64,000 nt of DNA from an uncultured Bacteroidia bacterium. Its GTDB lineage: Bacteria; Bacteroidota; Bacteroidia; Bacteroidales; Prolixibacteraceae. This document shows positions 12,803 to 64,000 of the stretch, piece after piece; position 1 is the stretch's first letter, and the number at the start of each line of letters is the position of its first letter. The notes under the pieces were generated by a model. It saw nothing but the letters and a program-made list of their open reading frames with translations. It searched no databases and was not told where the DNA came from. The translations under genes were made by a program, and so were the position numbers. The stretch covers positions 62,001 through 126,000 of the forward strand of contig CAIXCY010000014.1 in assembly GCA_903918045.1 (NCBI GenBank). Direction: 5' to 3'.

Positions 12803-14822
12803 CCTGTCTTTGTTTAAGTAATTCCTTAAGCCGGTACATCTCATCACGCAAACGGGCAGCCTCAATAAAATCAAGCTCCTTGGCCGCTTTTGCCATCTCT
12901 TTCTGAGTCATTTGAATTGTTTTTTCCAGGGCATCGGTGGTCATGTATTTCACTACCGGATCAGCCGCCACATCACTCCGCTCAGGCGGGATATAAGCCC
13001 TGCCCATGGCCGATTTGTCAGGACGATATTCCAAACCGATGATTTCACGGGTTGGCTTAATAATCTGAGTCGGAGAAATACCATTGGCAATGTTATAATC
13101 ATGCTGCTTTATCCTGCGGTAATTCGCAGAATCAATGGTTCGCTGCATCGAATCGGTGATCTTATCGGCATACATGATCACACGCCCATTTAAATTCCGG
13201 GCAGCACGCCCGGCAGTTTGCGTTAATGAGCGCTCAGAGCGAAGGAATCCCTCCTTATCGGCATCCAGGATGGCGACCAACGAAACCTCCGGCAAATCGA
13301 GCCCTTCGCGCAAAAGATTGATCCCGATCAGCACATCAAATACCCCTTTACGTAATTGCTCCATAATCTCAACCCTTTCCATGGTATCGACATCCGAATG
13401 AATATACCGGCAACGGATATTCATCCGGTCAAAATATTTCTGAAGCTCTTCAGCCATCCTTTTCGTAAGTGTGGTAACCAGTACCCGTTCATTCTTCTCT
13501 GACCGAATATGAATCTCCTCCATCAAATCATCAATCTGATTAATCCTTGGCCTGATTTCAATCTGGGGATCCAGAAGCCCTGTCGGCCGTATGATTTGTT
13601 CAACAACAACACCCTCACTTTTCTGAAGTTCGTAGTCTGCCGGAGTTGCACTTACAAAAACAATTTGTTTGGCAACATCCTCAAACTCCTCAAATTTCAG
13701 AGGCCGGTTATCAATGGCAGCAGGTAGCCGGAAACCATAATCGACGAGGGTGACCTTCCGCGACCGGTCACCGCCATACATCGCATGAATCTGAGGCATT
13801 GTCACATGACTCTCATCAATCACCATAAGGTAATCGTCCGGGAAATAATCGAGCAGGCAGAATGGTCTCGATCCGGGAGCGCGGTTGTCAAAATAGCGGG
13901 AATAGTTCTCAATGCCCGGGCAATATCCCAATTCACGGATCATCTCAAGATCATAAGTTACCCGGTCTTCGATCCGTTTTGCCTCCACATGTTTTCCTGA
14001 TCGCTTGAAAAAATCGACATGTTCCACCAGATCATTCTGTATCTTTTTAATTGCCAGCTGTATACTATCCTTTGTGGTCACAAATATGGTGGCCGGATAG
14101 ATCACACAGTTATCCATGCTCTTAATGGCATAACCATTCTCTGCATTGAAGAGGGCGATCTCCTCAATTTCATCACCATAAAACACAATTCGTATCGCAT
14201 CATCGGCATAGGCAGGAAATATATCGACTGTATCACCTTTAACCCTGAAATTTCCACGTTGAAACAGGACCTCGCTACGTGAATACATCGCATCCACAAG
14301 TTTATGGAGAAAAACATTGCGACTAAAAATCTCTCCTACTTTTACAGATAAGACATTCGCATGAAAATCCTGCGGATTTCCAATTCCATATAAACACGAA
14401 ACTGATGAAACAACAACAACATCCCTTCTACCCGACAATAGTGCAGAGGTAGTGCTTAGCCGGAGTTTTTCAATCTCCTTATTGATCGATAAATCTTTCT
14501 CTATGAAGGTATCAGTAACGGGCAAATAAGCCTCCGGCTGATAATAATCGTAATAGGAAACAAAGTACTCTACTGCATTTTCGGGAAAAAACTGTTTCAT
14601 TTCACCGTAAAGCTGAGCAGCCAGGGTCTTATTGTGACTCAAAATCAAGGTCGGTTTTTGAACCTGCTCGATAACATTAGCCATTGTAAAGGTTTTCCCC
14701 GAACCGGTAACCCCCAGCAAAGTCTGATAGGGAATACCGGTCTGTACGCCGTCAACAAGCTGTAATATGGCCTCCGGCTGGTCTCCTGTTGGCTGGTAAT
14801 CCGAAACAATTTTAAAATCCAT
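12795..14822 (-). CDS. uvrB: Excinuclease ABC subunit UvrB
   Basis: Helicase-like damage-verification subunit of bacterial nucleotide excision repair. It loads with UvrA and then recruits UvrC. The Walker A motif GVTGSGKTFT lies near residue 39, the beta-hairpin YYDYYQPEAY near 92-101, and the DESH box near 335. The helicase motifs VSATPADYE, LREGLDLPEVSLVAILDADKEG (positions about 500-522) and QTAGRAARN follow. A C-terminal UVR domain (about 630-665) binds UvrC. The ATG at 14822 is preferred over an upstream in-frame TTG at 14834. The 675-residue length is standard. Confidence 0.96.
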   Translation of the reverse strand: MDFKIVSDYQPTGDQPEAILQLVDGVQTGIPYQTLLGVTGSGKTFTMANVIEQVQKPTLILSHNKTLAAQLYGEMKQFFPENAVEYFVSYYDYYQPEAYLPVTDTFIEKDLSINKEIEKLRLSTTSALLSGRRDVVVVSSVSCLYGIGNPQDFHANVLSVKVGEIFSRNVFLHKLVDAMYSRSEVLFQRGNFRVKGDTVDIFPAYADDAIRIVFYGDEIEEIALFNAENGYAIKSMDNCVIYPATIFVTTKDSIQLAIKKIQNDLVEHVDFFKRSGKHVEAKRIEDRVTYDLEMIRELGYCPGIENYSRYFDNRAPGSRPFCLLDYFPDDYLMVIDESHVTMPQIHAMYGGDRSRKVTLVDYGFRLPAAIDNRPLKFEEFEDVAKQIVFVSATPADYELQKSEGVVVEQIIRPTGLLDPQIEIRPRINQIDDLMEEIHIRSEKNERVLVTTLTKRMAEELQKYFDRMNIRCRYIHSDVDTMERVEIMEQLRKGVFDVLIGINLLREGLDLPEVSLVAILDADKEGFLRSERSLTQTAGRAARNLNGRVIMYADKITDSMQRTIDSANYRRIKQHDYNIANGISPTQIIKPTREIIGLEYRPDKSAMGRAYIPPERSDVAADPVVKYMTTDALEKTIQMTQKEMAKAAKELDFIEAARLRDEMYRLKELLKQRQDG

Positions 14823-14889
14823 AATTGAAGACAATATTAATTATTTAATGGTGAATGATTAATGGTTAATAGTTGTAAATACAGATTAA

Positions 14890-14949
14890 GCATTAACCAT
14901 TATCGAATTAACCATTATCGAATTATCCATTATCGCATTAACTATTATT
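14890..14949. repeat. Four tandem 15-base repeats upstream of uvrB
   Basis: Four consecutive 15-mers of the form GMATTAACCATTATC, with one to three differences, run from 14890 to 14949. The last copy contains the stop codon of the downstream-facing HAD gene. A related segment (TTAATGGTTAATAG) sits at about 14857-14873 in inverted orientation. Confidence 0.6.
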
Positions 14950-15559
14950 CTATTTCTTTTCCAATAGTGACATCATAATATTCCGTCACATCAACCCACA
15001 TCATCCCGGCACGTTCGGCGGCATCGAGTCCAAGTTGACCGTCTTCATAAACCTCACAATCCGAAGGTTGAACACCAATAAGTTCCGCAGCCTTTAGGAA
15101 GGTATCCGGAAAAGGCTTATGATTCACCACATCCTCGGCAGCCACAACATGTTCAAAACAATCTTTTACACCGGCGATTTCGAGGGTTTTCCACGCCAGG
15201 TATTGTGAGCCGCCCGTTCCGCATGCCATTGGAAGTTTACCTTTGAACTCCCTGATAATTTTAACAACAGGTTCAATAGGCTTAGCTTTATGCATATTTT
15301 GCTCGTAACGCTTCTCCTTCAGCAAGGTAAATGCCAGTTCATCAAAGTCAAGATTAAATTTAGCCTTAAGGTATTGACTTGTTTGAAAGGCTGGTATACC
15401 AGTTACTTCAACGAAAAGCTCAGGAGTAAAATCTATCCCTTGTTCGGCTGCTGTCTCTCTCCATGCGATAAAATGAACAGGCATTGTATCACAAATTGTT
15501 CCGTCGATATCGAAAATCAATCCCTTTGCAAGCGGATTTGGTGTTAATTCATTCTCCAT
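14945..15559 (-). CDS. HAD-superfamily phosphatase (beta-phosphoglucomutase / fructose-1-phosphatase-like)
   Basis: Cytoplasmic HAD hydrolase of subfamily IA. Motif I DIDGTICDT lies at residues 18-26 with both catalytic Asp. The MPVHFIAWRETA segment that follows is typical of the YqaB/beta-PGM group with a helical cap. The Thr/Ser motif II (ACGTGGS) lies near 113-119, a Lys motif (VNHKPFPDTFL) near 145-155, and motif IV YEDGQLGLDAA near 171-181. The 204-residue length is usual. The exact sugar-phosphate substrate cannot be assigned. It precedes uvrB on the same strand but is separated by tandem repeats. Confidence 0.82.
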   Translation of the reverse strand: MENELTPNPLAKGLIFDIDGTICDTMPVHFIAWRETAAEQGIDFTPELFVEVTGIPAFQTSQYLKAKFNLDFDELAFTLLKEKRYEQNMHKAKPIEPVVKIIREFKGKLPMACGTGGSQYLAWKTLEIAGVKDCFEHVVAAEDVVNHKPFPDTFLKAAELIGVQPSDCEVYEDGQLGLDAAERAGMMWVDVTEYYDVTIGKEIE

Positions 15560-15668
15560 ATTTATGCTTTATTTAATCCTCAAAAATAAGAATATAAAAG
15601 TTTATGGCTATTTTATTAAATTGTTAACTGCAAAATCCTTATTTTGCATTTTTATAAAAGTGATAAAA

Positions 15669-16103
15669 ATGACAAATGCACAGTTATATTTACCAACGGT
15701 ACTCCCGCAGTGGGGAATATTTGCCGGTGTGGTTTTACTTACGATTGGATATGTGGATAAACGGGAATTGTGGACGTTTATTGGGTGGATAACTTTAATA
15801 CTCGCCGGTTTGACTTCGCTCTATTTCAACCTTTTTGGTGGTATTTCAGCTTTGGGTGAATCCAGCGTTCAGGAGGTTGCCGGAGGGTTAATTACCTCTA
15901 CGGGGTGGCAGTGTGCTGCAGGCGGAATATTAGCTGTTTCCTCACTGCTACTTTTTCACTATAAATCCAGGCGTTATTCAACACTGGCAATACTTACTTT
16001 AATCTATTTTGTCCTGATCTTTTTCCTTTTCACTCAGGTTTCCGCATTGTCGGGAAAGATCAATAAAACAGAAATTCAGACACATCAGAAGGACGAAAAA
16101 TAA
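15669..16103 (+). CDS. Small integral membrane protein of unknown function
   Basis: I do not recognise a family. From the ATG at 15669 it encodes 144 residues with four hydrophobic segments (about 14-28, 35-56, 76-92 and 100-119) and a charged hydrophilic tail ending in KDEK. An earlier in-frame start at 15564 would add a hydrophobic, unlikely N-terminus immediately against the divergent HAD gene, so the later ATG is preferred. It lies 64 bases before the next small membrane protein in the same direction. Confidence 0.6.
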   Translation: MTNAQLYLPTVLPQWGIFAGVVLLTIGYVDKRELWTFIGWITLILAGLTSLYFNLFGGISALGESSVQEVAGGLITSTGWQCAAGGILAVSSLLLFHYKSRRYSTLAILTLIYFVLIFFLFTQVSALSGKINKTEIQTHQKDEK

Positions 16104-16167
16104 ATAGAAATAAATTGCGACTGATAGAAATAAAATGAAATAACAGCTATCATTTATAATCAACTAT

Positions 16168-16701
16168 ATGACAAATGAAATGAGTTCCGTTTGGGAGATT
16201 TTAAAGATAACGCTCCCTGCCTTAATCGTTTTTTTAACCGCTTATTTTCTAATCAGGGATATGCTTGAAAACGGACAGAAACAAAGGGAGTTTGAGTTCC
16301 GGATGAATAACAGTAAGAAGGTTACCCCTATCAGGCTTCAGGCTTATGAGCGGCTGGCATTATTATTGGAAAGGATCTCTCCGCAGTCGCTTCTGATCAG
16401 AGTCCCGCCGCATGATCTGACCTCCTCCGATTTTCATCATCAGTTACTGGCAGCTGTCCGGCAGGAATTTGAGCATAACCTCTCCCAGCAAATTTACGTT
16501 TCTCCGATCCTTTGGGAAACCATCCGTGGAGCGAGGGAGAACCTGATAAGTATTATCAACAAATCGGCAGAGGAGATCGGTCATGAAGCCCCTGCCCTGC
16601 TGCTGAGTAAAAAAATTATCGAAAATTATATCGACGAAGAGAACCAGGTTATCTTGATCGCGATGAATGAGCTTAAAAAAGAGATCGGAAAACTGTTTTA
16701 A
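16168..16701 (+). CDS. Conserved Bacteroidota protein with one N-terminal membrane helix
   Basis: A 177-residue protein with a single hydrophobic segment near residues 11-28 (ITLPALIVFLTAYFL) and a charged, mostly helical cytoplasmic domain (IRLQAYERLALLLERISP; QLLAAVRQEFEHNLSQQIY). Its look matches a family of short single-helix proteins found widely in Bacteroidota without an assigned function. That match is from memory and not verified. A strong hairpin follows 26 bases after the stop, so the gene ends its transcription unit. Confidence 0.65.
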   Translation: MTNEMSSVWEILKITLPALIVFLTAYFLIRDMLENGQKQREFEFRMNNSKKVTPIRLQAYERLALLLERISPQSLLIRVPPHDLTSSDFHHQLLAAVRQEFEHNLSQQIYVSPILWETIRGARENLISIINKSAEEIGHEAPALLLSKKIIENYIDEENQVILIAMNELKKEIGKLF

Positions 16702-16727
16702 GAAATCGTTTCGCCGGTTTAAGAGTG

Positions 16728-16774
16728 AAGCCCTGACTTGTTTTTGTAGGAACAATTCAGGGCTTTACTTTTGA
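16728..16774 (+). terminator. Intrinsic terminator-like hairpin
   Basis: AAGCCCTGA (16728-16736) pairs with TTCAGGGCTT (16756-16765) across a loop of about 20 bases and is followed by TTACTTTTGA. It closes the transcription unit of the two small membrane-protein genes. The next 300 bases (16775-17094) hold a short repeat and no supportable gene. Confidence 0.55.
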
Positions 16775-16795
16775 AATAATTAAAATCTTCGGTCA

Positions 16796-16843
16796 GCGAC
16801 CGGGTGACTTTCAATTCCTGAACAAAGTCATCTGGTCACTTTT
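16796..16843. repeat. GTCACCCGGTCAC-type repeats, left side of the decayed island
   Basis: GCGACCGGGTGACTTT at 16796-16811 and AAAGTCATCTGGTCACTTTT at 16824-16843 are two inverted copies of a short motif whose clean form is AAAGTCACCCGGTCACTTT. The same motif recurs near 20.0-20.1 kb on the other side of the decayed genes. Confidence 0.5.
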
Positions 16844-17094
16844 AGATATTACAAAGTTTTTGATAATCAATAAAATAACTTTTTTTATTCCCTGTTTTAA
16901 TTTTGTTTCCATAAATATGTTTAGTAGGTTTGTTGTACCTCAATCCTTAAATATAACCGATGAAAACCGACCGGCACCATTGTAAATCCAGCACCCCAAA
17001 GTCAACTCTCCAGGAGAGCATCCCCGGCGTATTCCGAGAAAATCAGGCAATTAGCATTCAGCTTAGTAGGCTAATATTTAAAGTCTAATCCAAA

Positions 17095-17265
17095 ATGGAT
17101 GCAATACTAAATAATCCGTTCCGGATACTTGGCTTACCGACCACAGACAGCGATAAAGAAATTGCCAAAAGAGTTTCTGACTTTCTTATTACTGCAGAAA
17201 TAAGAAAAAAAGTAATTTACAAGACTGACTTTCCAATTTTTGGTAAAATTGATAGCTACCTATAA
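17095..17265 (+). pseudogene. Truncated N-terminal fragment of a larger gene
   Basis: A 56-codon reading frame begins with a well-formed N-terminus (NNPFRILGLPTTDSDKEIAK). I recall this as the opening of larger Bacteroidota proteins that also contain a ...TDFP... segment. The frame stops after KIDSYL, at the edge of a markedly AT-richer stretch. The abrupt end, the lack of any continuation in the other frames, and the position next to other broken genes suggest a gene remnant. The family identification is from memory and tentative. Confidence 0.45.
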
Positions 17266-17302
17266 TTAAATTTATTCCAAGAGCTTATAAACCTTAGCCT
17301 GT

Positions 17303-18055
17303 ATGAAATTTAAACTTGATGCGGTATTTTTAAGATACCTTGAGGATATTGACAAGGTAGACCTTACTAATTCGTCTATTGAAGAAAATCGAATAATTAC
17401 TGAGCTAAAACACTTTAAGCCTTTGTATTTTGCATTTTGTAAAATAATTCCAGAATTACAAAGATTGACCATTAATAAAAAGTTGTCAAAAAACAATAAT
17501 GAAACGATTACTAAGTTTGGTGATTTAAAAAATCCACCAGACGAGATAGTGAAAAAATTAAATAGGTATGGAAGGGCAAATCTAAAAAATCAAAGTGTCC
17601 TATATGCATCATTTATTTTACCAACATTGATAAAGGAAACCAATCCAGATGTTGGTGATTTGGTTACTATTTCCAGATGGAAATTGAAAAATGAGGATAC
17701 CCCATTATTTGTATCACCAATCATTGATTATGCAAAATGTAAGGATTACCAACTTCTAGAAGTATTTGAAAAGGCTTTATTGCAAGAGCCAAAAGACTGG
17801 CAAGTTATGTTTTTTCAGCATTATTGCTTAACAGTTAAGCATTTTGGTAAGTATGTTGAAAGAGGTAAAGATATAAATTACATTTTCAGTGCACATTTGG
17901 CTGACAAAATTTTCCATGAAATATATGGAGGGAAAGTTGAAGCTAATATTTATCCGAGTGTTCATGATTCTGGTACTACAAGTAATATTGCAATTAAACC
18001 AGATGTTTTTAACGAAAAGTATGAAATTGAAGAAATAACCGAAAGTAAACTATGA
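17303..18055 (+). CDS. RES-domain-like protein (candidate NAD+-degrading toxin family)
   Basis: A 250-residue soluble protein. The segment GRANLKNQSVLYASFILPTLIKET (about 92-115) and the later YPSVHDSGTTSNIAIKP (about 220-236) resemble the RES fold: a conserved Arg, then Tyr and Glu, then a Ser followed by a small-residue NxA pattern. RES proteins include NAD+ phosphorylase toxins of RES-Xre modules. No Xre-type antitoxin gene lies next to it, and the first 90 residues are unlike classical short RES toxins. Base composition is visibly AT-richer than that of the flanking genes, consistent with transfer. The stop overlaps the start of a broken RhuM-like gene (ATGA). The family call is an inference from motifs. 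Confidence 0.5.
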   Translation: MKFKLDAVFLRYLEDIDKVDLTNSSIEENRIITELKHFKPLYFAFCKIIPELQRLTINKKLSKNNNETITKFGDLKNPPDEIVKKLNRYGRANLKNQSVLYASFILPTLIKETNPDVGDLVTISRWKLKNEDTPLFVSPIIDYAKCKDYQLLEVFEKALLQEPKDWQVMFFQHYCLTVKHFGKYVERGKDINYIFSAHLADKIFHEIYGGKVEANIYPSVHDSGTTSNIAIKPDVFNEKYEIEEITESKL

Positions 18056-18257
18056 ACGAACAAAGAGGTCATGCAGAAATCATCCTGTATCAAACCGAAG
18101 ATTGAACCACTAATTTTGAGGTTCGTCTTGAAGATGATACTGTTTGGTTATTGCAAAGATTAATAGGTTAAATATTCCAGAAAGCGAAGGCAACCTTATT
18201 GAGCATTTCAAAAATATATTTGAAGAAGGTGAATTATTGGAAAGGTATTCACAATGA
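18052..18257 (+). pseudogene. Degenerate RhuM-family gene
   Basis: The frame begins MNEQRGHAEIILYQTED, then hits TGA at 18102 where intact relatives have a Gly codon. The same frame continues TTNFEVRLEDDTVWL. After an internal loss, another frame gives EHFKNIFEEGELLERYSQ and stops at 18257. Both pieces match the start of RhuM-type proteins (YQTEDG.T..EVRLE..TVWL and HIKNIFEEGEL), which are about 330 residues long and occur on mobile and accessory DNA. A nonsense codon, a deletion and the missing C-terminal two thirds make this a pseudogene. Confidence 0.7.
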
Positions 18258-18323
18258 ACGATGAACTTCACTGTTTAGTATAACTCCTCCCCCATTTCGA
18301 AGCAATCTCCGGAGGTCGGAAAT

Positions 18324-51784: not shown

Positions 51785-52570
51785 ATGACCCGGATTGTTT
51801 ACCGTTTGTACTTAACGATTTATGTGATTTCAGTATTAACAGCATTGATTGGGATAGGTTATTATGGCTTTTCGTTCTATCGGTTACCGATCGAAGAGCG
51901 ATTCTACAGTCCTGATTACGCATTACTTAAACCAAGCGGGCTCATTGGACATGGATTAGGAATTATAGGTTCTTTACTTATTACCCTTGGCGTTTTTTCC
52001 TATATGGCAAGAAAACGGTTGAAGGTTTTTTCAAGGTTGGGATTGATGAAACATTGGCTTGAATTTCATATTTTTCTGTGTGCCCTTGGACCGGTCTTCA
52101 TCCTGTATCATACCTCTTTTAAATTTGGTGGAATAGTATCTGTAAGTTTCTGGAGCCTTGTAGCCGTTGTTGCAAGCGGTGTTGCCGGTCGCTTTATTTA
52201 CCTGCAAATACCACACAGTATTGAGGGGCGGGAATTAAGCCTGCGTGAAGTCGAGGAGATGAAAGATGAGCTTATTGTCTCATTCCAGCAGAAGTATAAT
52301 ATTGATATTTCAGAACTGAATTCGGGGAATGCTGCAGCTATAGAATCGGAAATTAAAGCGAGAAACTTATCCAGAGGAGAGTACAAAACTGTAAAACAAC
52401 TGATTAAAAGTCAACGAAAACTTGTCAAGCGGATTGAACGGCTTGATTTTATGCAGAATATTTTCAAATACTGGCACGTTGCTCACTTGCCCTTTGCATT
52501 AATTATGCTGATAGTAATGATTATACATATTATTGTTGTATTGACATTAGGATATAAATGGATATTTTAA
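51785..52570 (+). CDS. b-type-cytochrome-like membrane protein of the multihaem operon
   Basis: A 261-residue inner-membrane protein with five hydrophobic helices (about residues 8-30, 54-75, 90-110, 116-137 and 232-257). Candidate haem-b ligands are His in or near helices: GLIGHGLG, KHWLEFH, ILYHTSF, WHVAHLPF and IIHIIVV. A charged, helical loop of about 85 residues (about 142-228) separates helices 4 and 5 and is probably cytoplasmic. No exact family is recognised; it resembles the membrane subunits of ferric-reductase or cytochrome-b561-type systems. It is the first gene of the operon, three bases before the Fe-S flavoprotein, suggesting the two form a complex. Confidence 0.7.
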   Translation: MTRIVYRLYLTIYVISVLTALIGIGYYGFSFYRLPIEERFYSPDYALLKPSGLIGHGLGIIGSLLITLGVFSYMARKRLKVFSRLGLMKHWLEFHIFLCALGPVFILYHTSFKFGGIVSVSFWSLVAVVASGVAGRFIYLQIPHSIEGRELSLREVEEMKDELIVSFQQKYNIDISELNSGNAAAIESEIKARNLSRGEYKTVKQLIKSQRKLVKRIERLDFMQNIFKYWHVAHLPFALIMLIVMIIHIIVVLTLGYKWIF

Positions 52571-53905: not shown

Positions 53906-53968
53906 TCCAGGAAGTACAATATAGAAAGAAATTCCTGAATAAAAGTCAATAAGTCAAAGACTAATTCA

Positions 53969-55576
53969 ATGATATATAGACCTTTAATACTTTTGCTAAT
54001 TACAATCCTGTTTGTAAAATGGAGCGTATTTGCGCAGATTTCACCCGGAGAACTGAGTAAATCGCACTCCTTCCTCGAGGGTGTAAGCAATTGTACCAAA
54101 TGTCACGATTTAGGAAATAAAGTTACAAGGGATAAATGCCTGGATTGTCACAAAGAGATTAAAAGTGATATTCGTCTAAAAAAAGGGCTCCATTCTACGG
54201 TTGAGCTACTATCAAAAGATTGTTTTGCCTGTCATAACGATCATCATGGCCAAAATTTCAAGATGATTAAATTTGATAAAGCGACCTTTAACCATACAAA
54301 TATCGGTTTTGAGTTAAAAGGGGCTCATTCAAAGGAAGATTGTAAAGGATGCAATTGCAATATATGTCATAAGGCTGCATTTATTAAGGATCCCGAACTT
54401 AAAAAAAAGAGTTCAACCTATTTAGGTTTAAACCGGGAATGTCTTTCATGCCATGAAGATTTCCACAAGGGCAAAATGTCTCCAAATTGTCTTAACTGCC
54501 ATGGATTTGATACCTTTAAAAAGGCTGCGGGATTTGATCACAACACAACGAAATATCCTTTGACAGGAAAACATAAAACAGTAAGTTGTGAAAAATGTCA
54601 TAAGCCGGCTTCAGTAAACGGAAAGAATGAGCAGCGTTTCGATAACCTGCTGTTCAATAGTTGCACCAATTGTCACAAAGATGTCCACGAAGACAAATTT
54701 GGACAGGATTGTAAAAAATGTCATACCGAGGAGTCTTTTCATCTAATCAAAGAAACAGGCAATTTCAACCATGACAAAACCGATTTTAAACTTGTTGGTA
54801 AACATCAGGCTTTGGATTGTAAAAAATGTCATAAAAGAAATCTGATTGATAAAATCAAATCTGAACATTGTTGGGACTGTCATGCTGATTATCATAAAAA
54901 CGAATTCACTAAAAATGGGGTGATGCAGGACTGCGACCAATGTCATAACAATAATGGTTTTACAGAGACTCTCTATACAATTGAAAAACATAATACGTTA
55001 AATTTCAAGCTCGAAGGGGGTCATCTCGCAACGCCTTGCATTGCATGTCACATGAAGCAGGAAAAGTGGACCTTCGTAAAAATTGGCAGCTTATGTATTG
55101 ATTGTCATCAAAATACGCACAAGGGATTCATTCAGGAGAAGTATTTTCCAAATGGAAAATGCACAGAATGTCATACGATAAACAATTGGAAAACACCTGA
55201 ATTTGATCATTCCAGAACCAATTTTAAACTTCAGGGGGCGCATGGCAAGGTAAAGTGTACCACATGTCACTATCTTAAAAACGAAACCGGAATAATAATA
55301 CAAAAGTTTGAAGGCCTTTCAATGGATTGTGTGAATTGCCACAAGAATTCTCATGAAAGTCAATTTGATATCAATGGAAAAACAGATTGCTTAAGATGCC
55401 ATGGATTAGATAACTGGAAACAGACCATATTCGATCATAAACAGGCAAGATTTAAACTCGAGGGGGCTCACCTAAAAGTAAGTTGTGAGAAATGCCATAA
55501 AGAGGTTATCAATGCAAACGGTAAATTTATTGTATATAAAAACAACAAGCTATTATGTTCAGACTGTCATCGGTAA
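53969..55576 (+). CDS. Secreted multihaem c-type cytochrome, 20 CXXCH motifs
   Basis: A Sec signal peptide (residues 1-22, ending VFAQ) precedes 535 residues in total. I count 20 CXXCH haem-attachment motifs, from CTKCH near 42 to CSDCH at the end. At least six times it contains the module F-D/N-H-x4-F/Y-x-L-x-G-x-H-x4-C-x2-C-H, shared with the two larger cytochromes downstream. One site reads CKGCN-CNICH, where an extra Cys pair lacks His. The protein is probably the periplasmic electron carrier of the system. The stop codon overlaps the next gene by 22 bases. Confidence 0.92.
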   Translation: MIYRPLILLLITILFVKWSVFAQISPGELSKSHSFLEGVSNCTKCHDLGNKVTRDKCLDCHKEIKSDIRLKKGLHSTVELLSKDCFACHNDHHGQNFKMIKFDKATFNHTNIGFELKGAHSKEDCKGCNCNICHKAAFIKDPELKKKSSTYLGLNRECLSCHEDFHKGKMSPNCLNCHGFDTFKKAAGFDHNTTKYPLTGKHKTVSCEKCHKPASVNGKNEQRFDNLLFNSCTNCHKDVHEDKFGQDCKKCHTEESFHLIKETGNFNHDKTDFKLVGKHQALDCKKCHKRNLIDKIKSEHCWDCHADYHKNEFTKNGVMQDCDQCHNNNGFTETLYTIEKHNTLNFKLEGGHLATPCIACHMKQEKWTFVKIGSLCIDCHQNTHKGFIQEKYFPNGKCTECHTINNWKTPEFDHSRTNFKLQGAHGKVKCTTCHYLKNETGIIIQKFEGLSMDCVNCHKNSHESQFDINGKTDCLRCHGLDNWKQTIFDHKQARFKLEGAHLKVSCEKCHKEVINANGKFIVYKNNKLLCSDCHR

Positions 55577-58311
55577 TTATAGCTTTAATGCTATCATTCA
55601 ATGCCGTCGCTCAATCACCACACGGGAGTAAATTGAATATAAAGTGTGATGTATGCCACGATCCGAATAACTGGGCCATGAAGGTTGAAGGTAGCACTTT
55701 CGACCACAATCAAACCAGCTATCCCTTAACAGGTCAGCATTTGACTGTGGATTGCAAACTGTGTCATGTAGATCTGATTTTTTCGAATGCTAAACCGACA
55801 TGTACCTCCTGCCACATGGATATGCACCAGCAAACAGTTGGAAATGATTGTGAAAGGTGTCACACTCCCAGATCATGGATTGTTAAGAATATTTTTGAAA
55901 TGCATCAATTAACCAGATTCCCTCTTAATGGCATTCATGCACAAACAGATTGTTATCAGTGCCACAAGTCAGCTTCACTGCTCCGTTTTGATCCAATGGG
56001 AACCGCTTGTTCCGACTGTCATTTAAAGGATTACACTATGGCAAATCAACCATCGCATATCCTTTCAAAATTTCCAAAGGATTGTTTTCTTTGTCATACT
56101 GAAAAAACATGGCAACCTGCCAAATTCAATCATAACGTAAACACCTCTTTTCCGTTAAATGGCGGTCATCAGGGTATTGATTGTGTGCTTTGCCATTCAA
56201 AAGGGTATACAATTTCGTTGACTTCTTGCGTCAGCTGTCACCTTACCGATTTCAATGCATCAAGGGACCCGGCGCATATAGCAGCCAAATTTTCGAATGA
56301 CTGCAAGGCCTGTCATACGGAGGTTTCCTGGAAGCCAGCAAGTTACAACCACAATACAGCCACATCTTTTCCTTTGACTGGCAGTCATGCAGGAGTAGAT
56401 TGCATCAGTTGTCACACGAAAGGGTATAGTGGAATTTCAAGTGATTGTGTAAGTTGCCATTTACTAAACTATAATTCCACAACTTCTCCATCCCACGTTG
56501 CTGCCAAATACTCGACGGATTGTAAGATATGTCATTCAGTTACGGCATGGAAACCCGCAACATTTGACCATAATATAGCAACATCTTTCCCGCTGACAGG
56601 CGCCCACTTTGGCGTAGATTGCATCAATTGTCATGCGAATGGCTATACGAGTACTTCAACGGCCTGTGTAAGTTGTCATTTAACTAATTATAATGGTTCA
56701 ACGAATCCTGGTCATATTGCAGCAAAATTTTCAACAGACTGCAAGACCTGTCATAATGTTACAGCCTGGTCACCTTCAACGTTTAATCACAATGTCTCAA
56801 CCTCTTTTCAGTTGGCAGGAAGTCATCTGGGATTAACATGTCTGAAATGTCATACAATGGGTTATGCCGGTATCTCCTCAGATTGCGTGAGTTGTCACCT
56901 CGCAAATTACAATGCAACCACAAATCCTTCGCATGCAAGTGCAAAATACTCTACGGAATGCAAATCATGCCATAATGTAACGGCATGGAAACCAGCTACA
57001 TTTGATCACAACAGCACATTATTCCCTTTAACGGGAGCCCACATCGGGGTAGATTGCATCCTTTGTCACTCCAAGGGATACGCAGGAACATCGACGGTCT
57101 GTGTCAGTTGTCACCAGACCAATTATAGTGCATCTACAAACCCCTCGCATGTGAATGCGAAATTTTCGACAGACTGTAAAAGTTGCCATTCGGTAACAGC
57201 CTGGAAACCTGCTTTATTCAATCACAATACCGCAACAACATTCCCTTTAACCGGTGGGCATGTGGGATTGGATTGTATCACTTGTCATGCGACAACTTAT
57301 GCCGGGACTCAAACTACATGTGTTAGTTGCCATCTGGCAAAATATAATGCAACTACCAATCCAGGCCATGTTTTAGCAAAGATCTCAACAGATTGTGCAA
57401 CATGCCATACTTCCATAGCGTGGTCGCCTGCTACATTCAATCACACTACGGGAACAACATTTCCGCTGACCGGAGCACATATCACAGTCAGTTGTGTCGG
57501 GTGTCATTCGAAAGGATATGCTGGAATTTCAACAACCTGTGTAAGTTGTCATTTGGCAAATTATAATGCATCTACAAATCCGGCACATGCTGCCGCCAAG
57601 TTTCCGACAACCTGTGAGAATTGCCACACCTCGGTAGCATGGGCACCATCAACGTTTAACCACGCGACCGCGACCACCTTTCCGTTAACGGGGGGACACG
57701 TTGGGGTAGCGTGTGTCAGTTGTCACACAACAGGATATGCTGGTATATCAACAACTTGTGTTAGTTGCCATTTAACCAATTATAATGCAACAACCAATCC
57801 GGGTCATGTTGCGGCAAAATTCTCAACAGACTGCGCGACATGCCATACGGTAACGGCATGGCTTCCTGGAACTTTCAACCATACTACCGGGACTACCTTT
57901 CCGCTTACCGGAGCCCATACCGGGTTAAGCTGTATCAGTTGTCATGCCACGGGATATGTTGGAATAGCCACAACATGTGTAAGTTGTCACTTAGCTAAAT
58001 ACAATGCAACAACGAATCCGGCTCATTCGGCTGCAAAGTTTCCTACAGACTGTGAGACTTGTCATACTGCGACCGTATGGACCACATCAACCTATAATCA
58101 TGATTCACAATTTTTCCGCATAAACAGTGGAAAACATAACGGACAATGGACTTTATGTAGTGATTGCCATACAAGTGCCACGAATTACGCGATATTCAAT
58201 TGTCTGCAATGTCATACACACAATCAGGCAACTACAGATTCAGAGCACAAAGGAAAAACCGGCTATGTTTACAACAGCACAAACTGCCTCTCGTGTCATC
58301 CTAAAGTTTAG
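55555..58311 (+). CDS. Large repeat-built multihaem cytochrome, 37 CXXCH motifs
   Basis: It encodes 918 residues with a Sec signal peptide (residues 1-19, ending AVAQ). I count 37 CXXCH motifs. An N-terminal domain of about 220 residues (seven haem motifs, with LLRFDPMGTAC) is closely paralogous to the start of the protein at 60206. It is followed by repeats of about 73 residues, each with three CXXCH motifs and three additional conserved His (NPxH, FNH, GxH). A short C-terminal cap (CSDCH, CLQCH, CLSCH) ends the chain. No sorting domain is seen. The likely location is the periplasm or cell surface as an electron wire. The start overlaps the previous gene by 22 bases, so translation is probably coupled. 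Confidence 0.93.
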   Translation: MFRLSSVIIALMLSFNAVAQSPHGSKLNIKCDVCHDPNNWAMKVEGSTFDHNQTSYPLTGQHLTVDCKLCHVDLIFSNAKPTCTSCHMDMHQQTVGNDCERCHTPRSWIVKNIFEMHQLTRFPLNGIHAQTDCYQCHKSASLLRFDPMGTACSDCHLKDYTMANQPSHILSKFPKDCFLCHTEKTWQPAKFNHNVNTSFPLNGGHQGIDCVLCHSKGYTISLTSCVSCHLTDFNASRDPAHIAAKFSNDCKACHTEVSWKPASYNHNTATSFPLTGSHAGVDCISCHTKGYSGISSDCVSCHLLNYNSTTSPSHVAAKYSTDCKICHSVTAWKPATFDHNIATSFPLTGAHFGVDCINCHANGYTSTSTACVSCHLTNYNGSTNPGHIAAKFSTDCKTCHNVTAWSPSTFNHNVSTSFQLAGSHLGLTCLKCHTMGYAGISSDCVSCHLANYNATTNPSHASAKYSTECKSCHNVTAWKPATFDHNSTLFPLTGAHIGVDCILCHSKGYAGTSTVCVSCHQTNYSASTNPSHVNAKFSTDCKSCHSVTAWKPALFNHNTATTFPLTGGHVGLDCITCHATTYAGTQTTCVSCHLAKYNATTNPGHVLAKISTDCATCHTSIAWSPATFNHTTGTTFPLTGAHITVSCVGCHSKGYAGISTTCVSCHLANYNASTNPAHAAAKFPTTCENCHTSVAWAPSTFNHATATTFPLTGGHVGVACVSCHTTGYAGISTTCVSCHLTNYNATTNPGHVAAKFSTDCATCHTVTAWLPGTFNHTTGTTFPLTGAHTGLSCISCHATGYVGIATTCVSCHLAKYNATTNPAHSAAKFPTDCETCHTATVWTTSTYNHDSQFFRINSGKHNGQWTLCSDCHTSATNYAIFNCLQCHTHNQATTDSEHKGKTGYVYNSTNCLSCHPKV
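56227..58066 (+). repeat. 219-base coding repeats in the 37-motif cytochrome
   Basis: About eight and a half in-frame units of 219 bases (73 codons, one of 72) tile this part of the gene, each anchored on CVSCH. Copies differ at many third codon positions while the Cys and His are kept, indicating selection on the protein and age since duplication. The last units alternate STDCATCH with FPT-C-E-CH types. Confidence 0.85.
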
Positions 58312-58362
58312 TTAATGATAAATAATACTAAGATAATCAGCCGGATAAATAAAATAAATAAT

Positions 58363-60012
58363 ATGAAGGCAGTTATATTCATTATTATTTCCTTGTGGTT
58401 TTCAAATAATATCTTTGGTCAAACAGAAGAGGTTATTTTAAAAGGGACTATTTCCTATATGAGTTCCCAGAACGTATATGTAAAATTCCCTGGTACGGAA
58501 GGAATACGTATTGGAGACACATTGTTTGTTGCGCGTAACAACCTTCTTATACCCGCTTTAAGGGTAAATAATCTCTCATCGGTTTCTTGTGTAGGATCAC
58601 TTATCGGGCTAATATCGCTTTCACTTTCGACTCCCCTGTTTGTAAAGGTTAAAATAGAAAGGAAAAAAGACGAAACAGTCAGAAAGGAATTCAATGAACC
58701 TGTTTCTGTGAACGATCAGGCGATAACTCAGATTCATAAAAATACAGTTCCCCAAAGGGACAGGTCTCAGATCGATGGCAGACTGGCTCTATCTACCTAT
58801 TCTACGATTTCAGGGCGAAACACAGATCAGAGGTATCGCTACAATTTGTCGATGAATGTTCAACATATCAACGATTCGAGGGTTTCATTGGAAAGTTATA
58901 TCTCCCTGACTCACAAATCAACCGAATTAAACCTGATCGGACATGACCTGAATAAGTATTTGAAAATATACAGTTTAGCGCTAAAATACGATTTTAGCAG
59001 GAATACAAATCTAACTGTGGGGAGAAAAGTGAATTTGAATATGGCTAATGTCGGAGCCGTGGATGGGCTTCATTTTGAGACTGCTTTGCAAAACTTCACT
59101 TATGGTGCAGTTTTAGGATCCCGCCCGGATTTTTTTGATTATAGCTTTAATCCCAAATTAATGCAATTTGGATTTTTTACGGCACACAATATTCAAAAAG
59201 AGAATGGAAACATGCAAACATCGCTTGCATTTTTCGACCAGATGAATAATTTTAAAACGGACAGGCGGTTTGCTTATTTACAGCACAGTAATTCGCTGTT
59301 AAAAAAACTGGATCTCTTTTGTTCCTTTGAATTTGATTTCTACACGATGGTAAATTTAAGACCCACCAATACGCTGGATCTGACAAGTACCTACATTTCG
59401 CTAAGGTACAAGCCATGGAAAAAACTCGCCCTATTTGTTTCCTATGACGCGAGAAAAAACATCTATTACTACGAAACATTTAAAAATCAAATTGATAGTA
59501 TAATAGACAGGGAATCTAGACAAGGATTACGATTCCAATTTACCTACCGTCCCGCAAAATTCCTCAACTGGGGAGGTTCAGGAGGGTACCGCTTCCAGAA
59601 ATCGGATCCGACACCCAGTATCAATGCGTATACCTATTTTAGTTACACACAGGTTCCTCTGATTCTTTCTTCGGTAACATTAAATGCCACTTACTTAAAA
59701 TCGGGTTATATCGATGGAACAGTTTATGGTATGTCGATCTCACGTGATCTTATCAACGGGAAAGTATATACAGAGTTGCAATATCGTCTTGTCAATTACA
59801 CCTATAAGAACTCTCATACTACCTTGCGGCAAGACATTGCTGAACTAAGTCTTTCCTGGCGAATTGCGAAGAAATTGACACTTTCGGCCGATTTTGAAGG
59901 GACTCATGAGCCGGGGAATAATTATGGACGAATCTATATAAGTATCATTCACCGAATTGGTGGAGGTATAAAAGCAAATAACAAAAGGTTTTCAAAAGTG
60001 CTGCGTTTCTAA
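58363..60012 (+). CDS. Outer-membrane beta-barrel candidate of the cytochrome operon
   Basis: From ATG at 58363 it encodes 549 residues with a Sec signal peptide (ending IFGQ). A small N-terminal beta-rich domain (about 20-80; VYVKFPGTEGIRIGDTLFV) is followed by a charged linker. A long region (about 130-549) of alternating polar and hydrophobic residues, with many aromatic residues at strand ends, ends in Phe, as beta-barrels of the outer membrane do. It contains no CXXCH motif. Lying between two giant multihaem cytochrome genes, it may be the porin that lets a cytochrome cross the outer membrane, like MtrB/PioB in function but without recognisable sequence similarity (inference). Confidence 0.7.
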   Translation: MKAVIFIIISLWFSNNIFGQTEEVILKGTISYMSSQNVYVKFPGTEGIRIGDTLFVARNNLLIPALRVNNLSSVSCVGSLIGLISLSLSTPLFVKVKIERKKDETVRKEFNEPVSVNDQAITQIHKNTVPQRDRSQIDGRLALSTYSTISGRNTDQRYRYNLSMNVQHINDSRVSLESYISLTHKSTELNLIGHDLNKYLKIYSLALKYDFSRNTNLTVGRKVNLNMANVGAVDGLHFETALQNFTYGAVLGSRPDFFDYSFNPKLMQFGFFTAHNIQKENGNMQTSLAFFDQMNNFKTDRRFAYLQHSNSLLKKLDLFCSFEFDFYTMVNLRPTNTLDLTSTYISLRYKPWKKLALFVSYDARKNIYYYETFKNQIDSIIDRESRQGLRFQFTYRPAKFLNWGGSGGYRFQKSDPTPSINAYTYFSYTQVPLILSSVTLNATYLKSGYIDGTVYGMSISRDLINGKVYTELQYRLVNYTYKNSHTTLRQDIAELSLSWRIAKKLTLSADFEGTHEPGNNYGRIYISIIHRIGGGIKANNKRFSKVLRF

Positions 60013-60205: not shown

Positions 60206-63200
60206 ATGAAAAAGCTCTGGTTCGTGATCCTTGGTATTTTAATTTCAATAAATTTAAGTGCTCAATCTCCACATGGCGATAAGCTTAAACTTAAATGTGA
60301 TGTTTGTCATACTTCACAAACCTGGGTTATAAAAGGTGAAAATAATCGTTTTGATCATACCACAACCAAATTCCCGTTGGTTGGTCAACATGGAACCATC
60401 AATTGCAGGAATTGTCATACTAACCTTATATTTTCCAATACGAATTCGAACTGTATTTCCTGTCACAAGGATATTCATGAGCAAACAGTTGGTCAGGAAT
60501 GTGATCGGTGTCATACACCAAATTCCTGGGGAGTGAAAAATATCGGTGCGATTCACCAGCGAAGCAGGTTCCCGTTAAACGGTCAGCATGCTAAAGTTGA
60601 TTGTTATTTGTGTCATAAGTCATCCTCTTTGCTTCGGTTTGATCCAATGGGAACGGCATGTTTGGATTGCCATGCGAAGGAGTACCTCGCAACGAGTCAG
60701 CCATCGCATCAGTTATCAAAATTTCCAACTGATTGCTTTTTGTGTCATAATGAAAAAGCCTGGAATCCTGCCAAATTCGATCATAATACGGCAACTAACT
60801 TCCCTTTAACCGATAGTCATGTCGGTCTGTCTTGTATTAGTTGTCATGCCGGCGGATATGCCAGGACGGCTACAGAATGTGTCGCGTGCCATATTAAGGA
60901 TTACAATTCAGCGGCTAATCCAAGCCATTTAGCAGCCAAATTTTCGACAGATTGTGAACTATGTCACAACGAAACGAATTGGAAACCTTCGTATTTTAAT
61001 CATAACACAGCCACAACGTTTCCTTTGGCCGATGGTCATCTTAAGGTTGCCTGTATCAATTGCCATACAAAAGGTTACGCCGGAACGTCACCTGAATGTA
61101 GTAGCTGTCACATTACCAACTATAATTCGACGACAAATCCAAATCATATAATTGCAAAGTTCTCTACCGATTGTAAGGGCTGTCATACTTCCTCCGGATG
61201 GAAACCTGCATTGTTTGATCATAATATCAATACTACTTTTCCATTGAACGGAGTCCATTCGTCGGTTTCTTGTGCGTTGTGTCATGTAAAAGGTTATGCC
61301 GGCACACCTTTTGAATGTGTTGGATGTCACTTGCCGAATTTCAATGCTACTACGATGCCATCGCATGTAACAGCGAAATATCCAACTAACTGCAAAATAT
61401 GTCATACTGCAACTGCCTGGAGACCATCAAATTTTGATCACAATACGAACACTGCATTTCCGCTTTCAGGTGCTCATATTGGATTGGCTTGTATCAGTTG
61501 TCATGCGCAAGGTTATGCTGGGATCCCAAATCAATGTGAGAGTTGCCATCTAACCAATTTTAATCAAACCACCAATCCTGGTCATGTTGCCGGGAAATTC
61601 CCCATTGAATGCAAATCCTGTCATATGACAAGCAGCTGGAAACCTGCCACATTCAAACACAGCTCCAGTCCAATTCCAGTTGGTGTTGAATGCATAACAT
61701 GTCATTTAAATGATTACAATGCGACTTCAAGCCCAGGACATATTACCTCAAAATTCTCGACCGATTGTCAAATTTGCCACAACGTTTCAACCTGGTCACC
61801 AGCCTTATTCAATCACACAACAGGCACTACATTCCCCTTAACAGGTGCTCACATTAGTTTATCCTGTATGAAATGTCATTCAAAGGGGTATGCAGGAACT
61901 TCAACTGATTGTTCAAGTTGTCATCTGGATAATTACAATGCAACAACTGAACCGATACACTCAGTGGTAAAGTTCCCCACAAGTTGTGAGACTTGTCATA
62001 ATTCGATAGCATGGATTCCTTCATCTTTCAATCATAATATTGGCACAAACTTTCCTTTAACCGGATCGCATGTTGGGGTAGCGTGCATCAGTTGCCATGC
62101 AACCAGTTATGCAGGCATATCTGCGAATTGTGTGAGTTGTCACATTGCAAATTACAATGCATCAGTGAATCCGCCTCATGTTGCTGCAAAATTTTCCACC
62201 GATTGTAAGACATGTCATTCCGCTACTGGTTGGTCCCCAGCCTTATTTAATCATAATTTAGCCACGAGTTTCCCATTAACCGGAGCTCATACCGCAGTAT
62301 CTTGCTCAAGTTGTCACTCGAAAGGATTTGTTGGGATCCCTATGACATGTGTAAGTTGCCATTTAACAAACTACAATGCTTCGACAAATCCTTCTCATTC
62401 GGCAGCAAAATTTCCAACAACTTGTGAGGTTTGTCACACTACCAATGGATGGACTCCATCCACATTTAATCATAATACAGGGACATCTTTTCCATTAACA
62501 GGGGCACATATCAGTGTTTCCTGCGCCAGTTGTCACACCAACGGATATGCAGGAATCCCTGCCACCTGTATAAGTTGTCATTTAATAAATTACAATGCCT
62601 CTACAAATCCCCCTCACTTAACGGCCAAATTTTCAACTGACTGCAAGACATGTCATACTGTTATAGCCTGGTCACCTGCAACGTTTAATCACTCAATAGG
62701 AACCACTTTCCCGCTCATCGGTGCCCATAGTGGAGTATCTTGCATCAGTTGTCATTTAAAGGGTTATGTTGGAATTGCAACAACCTGTAATAGTTGTCAT
62801 TTAGAAAATTACATTTCGACCACCAATCCGGCACATGCCACAGCCAAATTCCCGACAACCTGTGAATCATGTCATACCTCAACAGCTTGGTCTCCCTCAA
62901 CATTCAATCATAATACAAGCACGACTTTCCCATTAACAGGGGCACATATTGGTGTAACATGCAGTAGTTGTCACGCCAATGGGTATGCAGGAATTGCAAC
63001 CACCTGTGTAAGTTGCCATTTAGTAAACTATAATGCATCGGCAAATCCACCTCACTTAGCAGGAAAATTTTCAACTGACTGCAAAACCTGTCATTCTAAT
63101 ATTGCATGGTGGCCCGCTTCATTTAATCACTCAACTGCGACTACATTTCCTTTAACAGGCGCACATATTGGGGTTAGTTGTATTAGTTGTCATGCAACAG

Positions 63201-64000
63201 GATACGTAGGAATTGCAACGACGTGTGTCAGTTGTCATATCACCAACTATAATGCAACGACAAATCCGGCTCATGGTGCAGCCAAATTTCCGACCACCTG
63301 CGAAACATGTCATACTTCAACATCGTGGTTACCATCGACTTTTAATCACAATACAAATACGACATTCCCGTTGGCCGGGGCACACATAGGAATTACCTGT
63401 ATCAGCTGCCATGCCAATGGCTATGGAGGGATCTCAACCACCTGTGTAAGTTGCCACTTATCTAATTTTAATGCAACAGCAAATCCTCCTCATGTATCTG
63501 CGAAATTTTCAACCGATTGTAAGACATGCCACACCGTAAATGGCTGGACGCCGGCCACATTTAATCACACGACAGGAACCACATTCCCCTTAACAGGTGC
63601 CCACATAAACCTAACCTGTATCAGTTGTCATTCAAAAGGGTATGTCGGAATTGCAACTACCTGTGTGAGTTGTCATTTAACAAATTATAACGCCACTACC
63701 AATCCGGCACATGCAGCTGCGAAATTCCCAACAACCTGTGAGACTTGTCATACCTCAACAACGTGGTCTCCATCCACATTTAATCATAATACAAGTACAA
63801 CCTTTCCACTGGCAGGGGCACATATCGGAGTAACCTGCATCAGTTGTCATTCGAAAGGGTATGCCGGGATTGCAACCACCTGTGTCAGCTGTCATCAGGC
63901 TGATTATAATGCAACAACGAATCCTGCTCATCTGGCAGGCAAGTTCTCCACCGACTGCAAAACCTGTCATACCGTAACAGCCTGGCAACCATCAACCTTT
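60206..64000 (+). CDS. Giant multihaem cytochrome, at least 51 CXXCH motifs (3' truncated)
   Basis: The frame opens with ATG at 60206 and is uninterrupted to the end of the window: 1265 residues with no stop. A Sec signal peptide (ending LSAQ) leads into an N-terminal domain (KCDVCH...LLRFDPMGTACLDCH) paralogous to that of the 37-motif protein. Then come about 14 three-haem repeats of 73 residues. I count 51 CXXCH motifs in the visible part. Each full repeat also has conserved NPxH, FNH and GxH histidines, matching the number of haems. One repeat near residues 470-500 is shortened and has only two motifs. The protein is likely exported as a very long electron-conducting chain; its total size is unknown. 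Confidence 0.92.
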   Translation, partial: MKKLWFVILGILISINLSAQSPHGDKLKLKCDVCHTSQTWVIKGENNRFDHTTTKFPLVGQHGTINCRNCHTNLIFSNTNSNCISCHKDIHEQTVGQECDRCHTPNSWGVKNIGAIHQRSRFPLNGQHAKVDCYLCHKSSSLLRFDPMGTACLDCHAKEYLATSQPSHQLSKFPTDCFLCHNEKAWNPAKFDHNTATNFPLTDSHVGLSCISCHAGGYARTATECVACHIKDYNSAANPSHLAAKFSTDCELCHNETNWKPSYFNHNTATTFPLADGHLKVACINCHTKGYAGTSPECSSCHITNYNSTTNPNHIIAKFSTDCKGCHTSSGWKPALFDHNINTTFPLNGVHSSVSCALCHVKGYAGTPFECVGCHLPNFNATTMPSHVTAKYPTNCKICHTATAWRPSNFDHNTNTAFPLSGAHIGLACISCHAQGYAGIPNQCESCHLTNFNQTTNPGHVAGKFPIECKSCHMTSSWKPATFKHSSSPIPVGVECITCHLNDYNATSSPGHITSKFSTDCQICHNVSTWSPALFNHTTGTTFPLTGAHISLSCMKCHSKGYAGTSTDCSSCHLDNYNATTEPIHSVVKFPTSCETCHNSIAWIPSSFNHNIGTNFPLTGSHVGVACISCHATSYAGISANCVSCHIANYNASVNPPHVAAKFSTDCKTCHSATGWSPALFNHNLATSFPLTGAHTAVSCSSCHSKGFVGIPMTCVSCHLTNYNASTNPSHSAAKFPTTCEVCHTTNGWTPSTFNHNTGTSFPLTGAHISVSCASCHTNGYAGIPATCISCHLINYNASTNPPHLTAKFSTDCKTCHTVIAWSPATFNHSIGTTFPLIGAHSGVSCISCHLKGYVGIATTCNSCHLENYISTTNPAHATAKFPTTCESCHTSTAWSPSTFNHNTSTTFPLTGAHIGVTCSSCHANGYAGIATTCVSCHLVNYNASANPPHLAGKFSTDCKTCHSNIAWWPASFNHSTATTFPLTGAHIGVSCISCHATGYVGIATTCVSCHITNYNATTNPAHGAAKFPTTCETCHTSTSWLPSTFNHNTNTTFPLAGAHIGITCISCHANGYGGISTTCVSCHLSNFNATANPPHVSAKFSTDCKTCHTVNGWTPATFNHTTGTTFPLTGAHINLTCISCHSKGYVGIATTCVSCHLTNYNATTNPAHAAAKFPTTCETCHTSTTWSPSTFNHNTSTTFPLAGAHIGVTCISCHSKGYAGIATTCVSCHQADYNATTNPAHLAGKFSTDCKTCHTVTAWQPSTF
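60830..64000 (+). repeat. Alternating 219-base coding repeats (438-base higher-order unit)
   Basis: Three-haem units of 219 bases run head to tail to the window end. From about 61.75 kb the central motif alternates strictly between FSTDC(K/Q)xCH and FPT(T/S)CExCH, and linked residues alternate too (for example FPLTGAH with FPLAGAH in the last units). The effective repeat is therefore a pair of 438 bases. Copies differ in many synonymous positions. Confidence 0.85.

Follow-up and report, generated by a model that had tools for sequence, protein, structure and literature searches.

The DNA considered here (the window) is a stretch of 64,000 nucleotides from the genome of an uncultured bacterium of the family Prolixibacteraceae. 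It ends inside the gene of a giant multihaem cytochrome, the last in a run of six genes that resembles the PCC3 type of porin-cytochrome conduits. The giant is a polymer of a 73-residue, three-haem unit similar to cytochrome c7. In our opinion, it is probably (at roughly 0.6) a secreted c7-type polymer with 54, and probably at least 84, haems that serves as a long conductor and electron store in a PCC3-type trans-envelope conduit. This opinion is based on the haem motifs, the structure of the units, the order and conservation of the genes, the predicted fold of a beta-barrel, and the homology of the membrane protein and cytochromes to those of Pseudomonadota.

Haem motifs and the three-haem unit

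The frame beginning with ATG 60206 contains no stop over 1265 codons up to the end of the window at 64000, and its translation carries 51 CXXCH motifs, 102 Cys and 102 His; neither CX3CH nor CX4CH was found in this translated part (60206-64000). An earlier sequence-only reading had claimed the same frame and the same number of motifs, and both were reproduced by translation and recount. That reading had also proposed a Sec signal peptide, and the N-terminus, MKKLWFVILGILISINLSAQ, indeed looks, by eye from the translation, like a Sec/signal-peptidase-I leader. The window corresponds to positions 62001-126000 of its contig (C14), which ends at 126223. The frame stays open over these further 223 nucleotides (nt), giving 1339 residues with 54 CXXCH, 108 Cys and 108 His, or one additional His per haem. 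In 300 shuffles of the 1339 residues the motif appeared 0.72 times on average and 4 times at most, so its number in the giant is not due to chance. Other frames of the window with at least two CXXCH are only 53939-55573 (20 motifs) and 55540-58308 (37 motifs); the earlier reading was silent on these frames, on the three-haem unit and on the conduit cluster.

The source genome (5.36 Mb in 281 contigs) is 98.8% complete with 3.99% contamination. Mis-assembly of the repeats had been named as a possible objection to the giant frame. At the DNA level, the best pair of its units is 78% identical and the longest exact repeat in the C14 part is 26 nt; since the units are clearly divergent, the array in the window is unlikely to have been falsely expanded.

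The N-terminal part is irregular; behind it, the motifs follow each other at spacings of 33-15-25 residues, which add up to a three-haem unit of 73 residues. A single unit of the giant holds two haems (a spacing of 27). The Pfam family Cytochrome_C7 (PF14522) matched the giant with 164.7 bits at a cut-off of 24.8. In 77 four-unit segments, used from 82 non-redundant ones of the window and 17 public loci, every Cys and His of CXXCH and three further His per unit were invariant, as expected for bis-histidine ligation of haem. A profile of four units was compared with solved structures and found the 16-haem cytochrome 1z1n (E-value 1.3e-11) and, over residues 26-317, the structure 3ov0 (2.9e-10), which we take to be the 12-haem GSU1996; eight multihaem cytochromes matched more weakly behind them. 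Differences between units averaged 0.28 at codon positions 1 and 2 and 0.59 at position 3, and this excess fits a protein kept by selection. Units of the giant resemble the next but one more than the next, which hints at a higher-order alternation; permutation gave p = 0.03 for 16 units and 0.0036 for the last 10, which had been picked post hoc. The 37-haem paralogue encoded two genes upstream does not show it (lag 1 0.543, lag 2 0.538).

Probable continuation beyond the contig break

Another contig of the same genome (C274) opens inside an array of the same kind, with 718 codons, 30 CXXCH and a stop at 2158. The last haem on C14 is the first of a unit and the first one on C274 is the second, so that the haem phase fits. 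The closing spacings of C274, 35-15-26, are similar to those of the 37-haem paralogue, 35-15-28; among complete multihaem frames of the genome collection, duplicates included, the former ending occurred in 5 and the latter in 24. Directly behind the array, on the opposite strand, lies a gene for a protein of 1005 amino acids (aa), by eye similar to NagZ/beta-lactamase, followed by more genes on that strand, and such a NagZ-like gene is also found behind array ends on contigs of the relatives G009, G010, G012 and G017. In another relative (G004, locus L010), the barrel match (12635-14236) and the NagZ-like match (15352-18285) are on a single contig, 1.1 kb apart. The conduit cluster and the NagZ-like gene being on one contig there, the end of C14 and the start of C274 are most simply parts of one gene. 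The giant itself is not at this place in L010, where the interval from barrel to NagZ-like gene (14236-15352) is about 1.1 kb long.

Joined together, the two parts give 54 + 30 = 84 motifs in 2057 residues, or 24.5 residues per haem. The join itself is unsequenced; most likely, 84 haem sites are the minimum for the gene, and the true number could be higher. Thus, the continuation of the gene past the window, foreseen by the sequence-only reading, was confirmed up to the end of C14 and most likely extends across the break. Nucleotides 1-98 of C274 recur exactly at 439-536, with 96.7% identity over 180 nt and a spacing of 438 nt, equal to two units; this repeat is a recent duplication of a six-haem block, and the contig break is explained by such repeats. 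In G010, which was assembled independently, the end of the array is nearly the same (98.7% at the DNA level), and the neighbour gene is 99.7% identical as protein. Identity between C274 and G010 is 81-97% in the first 300 nt and 98-100% later. As the difference lies in this first stretch, blocks may have moved there, and only 84 haems are claimed. The presence of one or more extra units between C14 and C274, considered after comparing the C14 tail with the head of the G010 array (117 of 162 columns), was weakened and is not claimed. No intact copy of the post-barrel giant was found in the genus: the array is cut off by the end of the contig in all four members with a visible start (G000, G009, G014, G017).

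It is improbable that the two contig ends belong to separate genes or that the array was misassembled, in which case the real protein would be nearer to 54-60 haems. Such an explanation draws on the lack of overlap, as no contig bridges C14 and C274 and no exact stretch longer than 18 nt is common to their arrays, on the start of C274 exactly at the 98-nt exact repeat, where short-read assembly is unreliable, and on the tandem pairs of array genes in three relatives (L014, L018, L116). The matching haem phase, the G004 contig and the independent G010 assembly argue against this explanation. A single gene across the break is, in our opinion, the better explanation.

The gene cluster and its putative role

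The giant gene and five genes before it are co-directional (Table 1). All statements on published systems below refer to extracts of the papers named.

Table 1. Coordinates of the cluster genes and of the leader of the giant in the window
Feature	Position	Strand	Basis
Inner-membrane protein, 261 aa, putative quinol-reactive di-haem cytochrome b (PCC3/PCC4-type 'IMP')	51785..52570	+	Motifs; homologues in equivalent clusters
4Fe-4S dicluster and FAD/NAD(P) pyridine-nucleotide oxidoreductase, 443 aa	52574..53905	+	Pfam Pyr_redox_3 3.9e-43, Fer4_10 6.7e-10
20-haem cytochrome, 535 aa, putative periplasmic	53969..55576	+	20 CXXCH; Cytochrome_C7 and Cytochrom_c3_2 above cut-off
37-haem c7-like array, 918 aa, paralogue of the giant	55555..58311	+	37 CXXCH; Cytochrome_C7 1.2e-39
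Outer-membrane beta-barrel ('porin'), 565 aa, with small N-terminal beta domain	58315..60012	+	AlphaFold2 model
Giant c7-like array, N-terminal 1265 residues, 51 haem motifs	60206..64000	+	Cytochrome_C7 4e-49
Sec-type signal peptide of the giant, probable cleavage after LSAQ	60206..60265	+	By eye

PCC3 is described as a porin, an extracellular cytochrome (median 34 haems, up to 85), a periplasmic cytochrome (median 21) and a membrane protein, mostly from Proteobacteria (PMC5566968); the periplasmic cytochrome of Gallionellaceae has 21-27 haems (PMC10734462). The membrane protein of PCC3 consists of about 300 aa and has five transmembrane helices; two WX3HX13H and SGXXG are its motifs, as given for PCC3/PCC4 (PMC5566968). 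In the window, the membrane protein, which matched no Pfam or NCBIfam family, carries WX3HX13H at residues 91 and 230 and SGXXG at 51 and 131 (SGVAG at 131). Simple hydropathy gave hydrophobic stretches at 3-32, 50-76, 90-143 and 226-261, the third of which is long enough for two helices. The window thus encodes counterparts of PCC3 components: the motifs of the membrane protein, a cytochrome of the ~21-haem type (20 haems), a very large second cytochrome of variable length and a predicted barrel.

In a comparison of the unit profile with 398 genomes of Pseudomonadota, the phylum to which locus L054 (labelled Porphyrobacter) belongs, 31 matched, and the five strongest stretches were studied. 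A homologous membrane protein with two WX3HX13H was found in all five (E-values from 2e-13 to 9e-24), next to a homologue of the 20-haem protein with 24 haems in four stretches and 21 in one (30-33% identity). A homologous second multihaem protein has 11, at least 19, 34, 27 and at least 8 haems, two of these proteins running off their contigs, and the iron-sulfur (Fe-S)/FAD homologue is present in three of the five stretches.

Like PCC3, the cluster combines the WX3HX13H/SGXXG membrane protein, a putatively periplasmic cytochrome of the ~21-haem class, the very large length-variable second cytochrome and a barrel; residues per haem are few (24.5 here, 22-39 in PCC3; PMC5566968) and the repeats are rich in Thr, Ser and Ala. 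Unlike PCC3, it belongs to a host from Bacteroidota, has a second, post-barrel array besides the 37-haem one and includes the Fe-S/FAD gene inside the run, and its barrel was modelled with 22 strands as against up to 42 predicted in PCC3 porins (PMC5566968). We conclude that the cluster is a Bacteroidota relative of PCC3, a system of a known kind, near the largest sizes that we found reported.

The barrel itself matched no Pfam family and no porin family of Pfam or NCBIfam. Its AlphaFold2 model, built with 22 sequences, has a mean pLDDT (predicted local distance difference test) of 79.5, a pTM (predicted template modelling score) of 0.60 and the 22 strands within residues 152-548. It resembles outer-membrane barrels with Z-scores up to 19.1 (333 residues, root-mean-square deviation 4.8), a likeness of fold only, not of function. 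Porins of the MtrB/PioB type were absent from the best 50 structural matches, which excludes nothing. The Fe-S/FAD protein was closest to YpdA in NCBIfam (163 bits, far under the cut-off of 340). Single-sequence searches of solved structures gave only 8k9e for the 20-haem protein (E-value 0.0032) and nothing at 0.01 for the 37-haem protein, whose first 220 residues share 60% identity with the giant. As to the families of the MtrCAB and OmbB-OmaB-OmcB conduits, both proteins reached 38-43 bits with the DmsE-type family TIGR03508 (cut-off 192). The start of the 37-haem gene overlaps the end of the 20-haem gene by 22 nt (55555-55576), and the corresponding matches overlap by about 19 nt in L009, L010 and L011, which suggests translational coupling. 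A cytochrome c assembly protein (PF01578) is encoded elsewhere in the genome, this family being matched also in 9 of 14 control genomes.

In the proposed scheme, electrons of the quinone pool and/or NAD(P)H would enter the membrane protein and the Fe-S/FAD protein, pass to the periplasmic 20-haem cytochrome and, through the beta-barrel, reach the 37-haem array and the giant at or beyond the outer membrane. Each 73-residue unit would bind three c-type haems with bis-histidine ligation, and the giant would conduct and store electrons as the outermost part, in reach of an acceptor or donor outside the cell. The path and direction of electrons, the extracellular location and the haem loading are inferred, as is the contig join.

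Several results weigh against this scheme. No lipobox, surface anchor or C-terminal sorting domain was seen by eye in the giant. The window's barrel had no BLAST match at an E-value of 0.01 in the five Pseudomonadota stretches, two of which end at contig ends, and three candidate barrel frames there gave no telling family match. The NCBIfam triheme nanowire domain TIGR04257 stayed under its cut-off of 40 bits in the giant (34.8), and also in the 37-haem protein (32.9). When modelled without haem, four units gave a middling result (pLDDT 71.8, pTM 0.44) that resembled no fold of the PDB well (best Foldseek E-value 8.9; none of 2 chains had a Z of 2 or more). In the C274 part, 30 motifs go with 29 additional His, one fewer than one per haem. 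Finally, 8 of 56 complete arrays in relatives depart from a haem number of 1+3n.

The lack of an anchor and the plain Sec-type leader would also suit a rather unlikely alternative, in which the arrays remain periplasmic as electron stores, as was proposed for the 12- and 27-haem c7 polymers of Geobacter, and the barrel has another role or serves only the 37-haem protein. The position of the arrays on both sides of a barrel gene argues against this, and a straight chain of 84 haems, at about 1 nm per haem, would exceed the width that we take the periplasm to have, although it could bend or coil. The matched 12-haem structure 3ov0 belongs to a class described as periplasmic storage (PMC10138318), but the second cytochrome of PCC3-like clusters, to which the arrays are homologous, is placed outside in PMC5566968.

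It is also possible, though doubtful, that the conduit imports electrons from reduced iron, metal or a partner cell instead of exporting them. PCC3 was first proposed from iron oxidisers (PMC5566968), Prolixibacter denitrificans (L015) carries the cluster with a 16-haem array, and Prolixibacter strains are reported to take part in nitrate-dependent corrosion of metallic iron (PMC8368055). However, the title of the latter paper names nitrite as a causal factor, which speaks against direct uptake, and the direction is not readable from the cluster. A secreted conductor and store within a PCC3-type conduit is the reading that we prefer.

Array lengths in relatives and other giant cytochromes

Scanning the collection of species genomes with the N-terminal domain gave 48 loci, mostly from Bacteroidota, the remaining labels being Ignavibacteria, Calditrichota, Gemmatimonadetes, Acidobacteria, Nitrospirae and others. 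All five types of partners were found together in 20 of these loci; several others are cut by contig ends, and the most distant ones are without partners. With the window's own genome included, the giant as query matched 9 of 18 genomes of its genus, and the N-terminal domain matched 60 of 140 genomes of the family and, in many cases weakly, 100 of 395 across the phylum. Cultured carriers include P. denitrificans and, with an array of 13 haems, Draconibacterium mangrovi (L017), both placed by NCBI in Prolixibacteraceae, Bacteroidota.

The distinct complete array frames (n = 56) contain from 9 to 64 haems, the largest intact one being that of G358 (L154). Haem numbers are 1 modulo 3 (1+3n) in 48 of them, 0 in five and 2 in three. 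The sizes are not a random sample: long or broken open frames were the main reason for choosing loci L107-L124 and L154-L171, only copies that matched the N-terminal domain were kept, and each frame was measured between stops. Of the 62 distinct complete copies in the 20-haem class, 45 carry 20 haems and nine carry 23, when matches covering at least 450 of the 535 residues are counted (45 of 71 without this limit). For the membrane protein, 52 distinct near-full-length homologues were compared; two WX3HX13H are present in 50 and SGXXG, at some position, in all. The near-constant 20-haem protein would suit a periplasmic gap of fixed width, and the freely varying arrays an outer side without such a limit.

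Tentatively, we suggest that the post-barrel array could work as an extendable cable. It would then be one secreted chain with far more than 84 haems, which at 1 nm per haem means a length of at least about 80 nm. Gain and loss of three- and six-haem blocks, even between near-identical strains, would tune this length in evolution, with the rest of the conduit fixed in size. If this is true, no single-chain haem wire known so far would be longer. The arrays of relatives form a length series made by nature, most of whose steps are of three haems; intact contigs reach 64 haems, and the window's genome goes further. It can thus be tested whether extracellular electron transfer owes its reach, its rate or its capacity for storage to the length of the haem chain. 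Clusters of the PCC3 kind are common in this family of Bacteroidota, and its cultured carriers are tractable hosts.

The statement of the sequence-only reading that few known c-type cytochromes have so many haems is fair but needs context, as proteins of comparable size have been published: 85 haems in a proteobacterial PCC3 protein (PMC5566968) and 86 in cytochromes of ANME-2c (PMC9012536) and Desulfuromonas acetexigens (PMC12133095). The 86-haem proteins are likened to the giant by haem number per chain alone, and that of ANME-2c, unlike the giant, carries S-layer and pectin-lyase-like domains. The length of tens of nanometres given by the same reading agrees with about 1 nm per haem in MtrA (10 haems, about 100 angstrom, as quoted in PMC5566968), and it would apply to an extended chain.

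Burkholderiales have 24- and 49-haem cytochromes with an OmbB-like porin (PMC7399161). As in the window, two large cytochromes are beside a porin, and the larger one is variable, apparently because domains with CXXCH were gained or lost (PMC7399161); by description rather than by sequence, the giant differs in its size, with 54 haems on this contig and probably at least 84, compared with 49. The Geobacter c7 polymers GSU1996 and GSU0592 (12 haems) and GSU2210 (27 haems) are described as periplasmic storage devices (PMC10138318). GSU1996 is like the giant in having three-haem domains in one chain, but these polymers have only 12-27 haems. Borgs encode up to 33 haems (PMC11208441), and one survey reports gene neighbourhoods with more than 100 motifs (PMC11475568). 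In the literature searched, mainly open access and thus weak evidence of absence, no paper was found on PCC3 porin-cytochromes in Bacteroid- taxa or on multiheme extracellular electron transfer in Prolixibacteraceae.

Some relatives show other arrangements. A short 13-haem array gene is situated between the long array and the barrel in L014 (13614-14669), L018 (9965-11014) and L116 (9987-11021). In L114 (G014:C22, 1934-6791), there is no array between the 20-haem gene and the barrel, and the sole visible array follows the barrel and runs off the contig. A frame of 1410 codons with 51 CXXCH in L042 (7886-12115, labelled Nitrospirae) starts like the 20-haem protein and continues array-like to the contig end in one frame, possibly a fusion of the periplasmic and array parts. 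In L025, L034 and L039, stop-to-stop frames overlap, and a fusion of membrane protein and cytochrome was therefore considered; it was rejected, as the matches are in different frames (determined by hand from coordinates). A second array-plus-barrel stretch was found in G004 (L113, G004:C115, 6026-8407), where the end of an array is followed by a diverged barrel with 39% identity.

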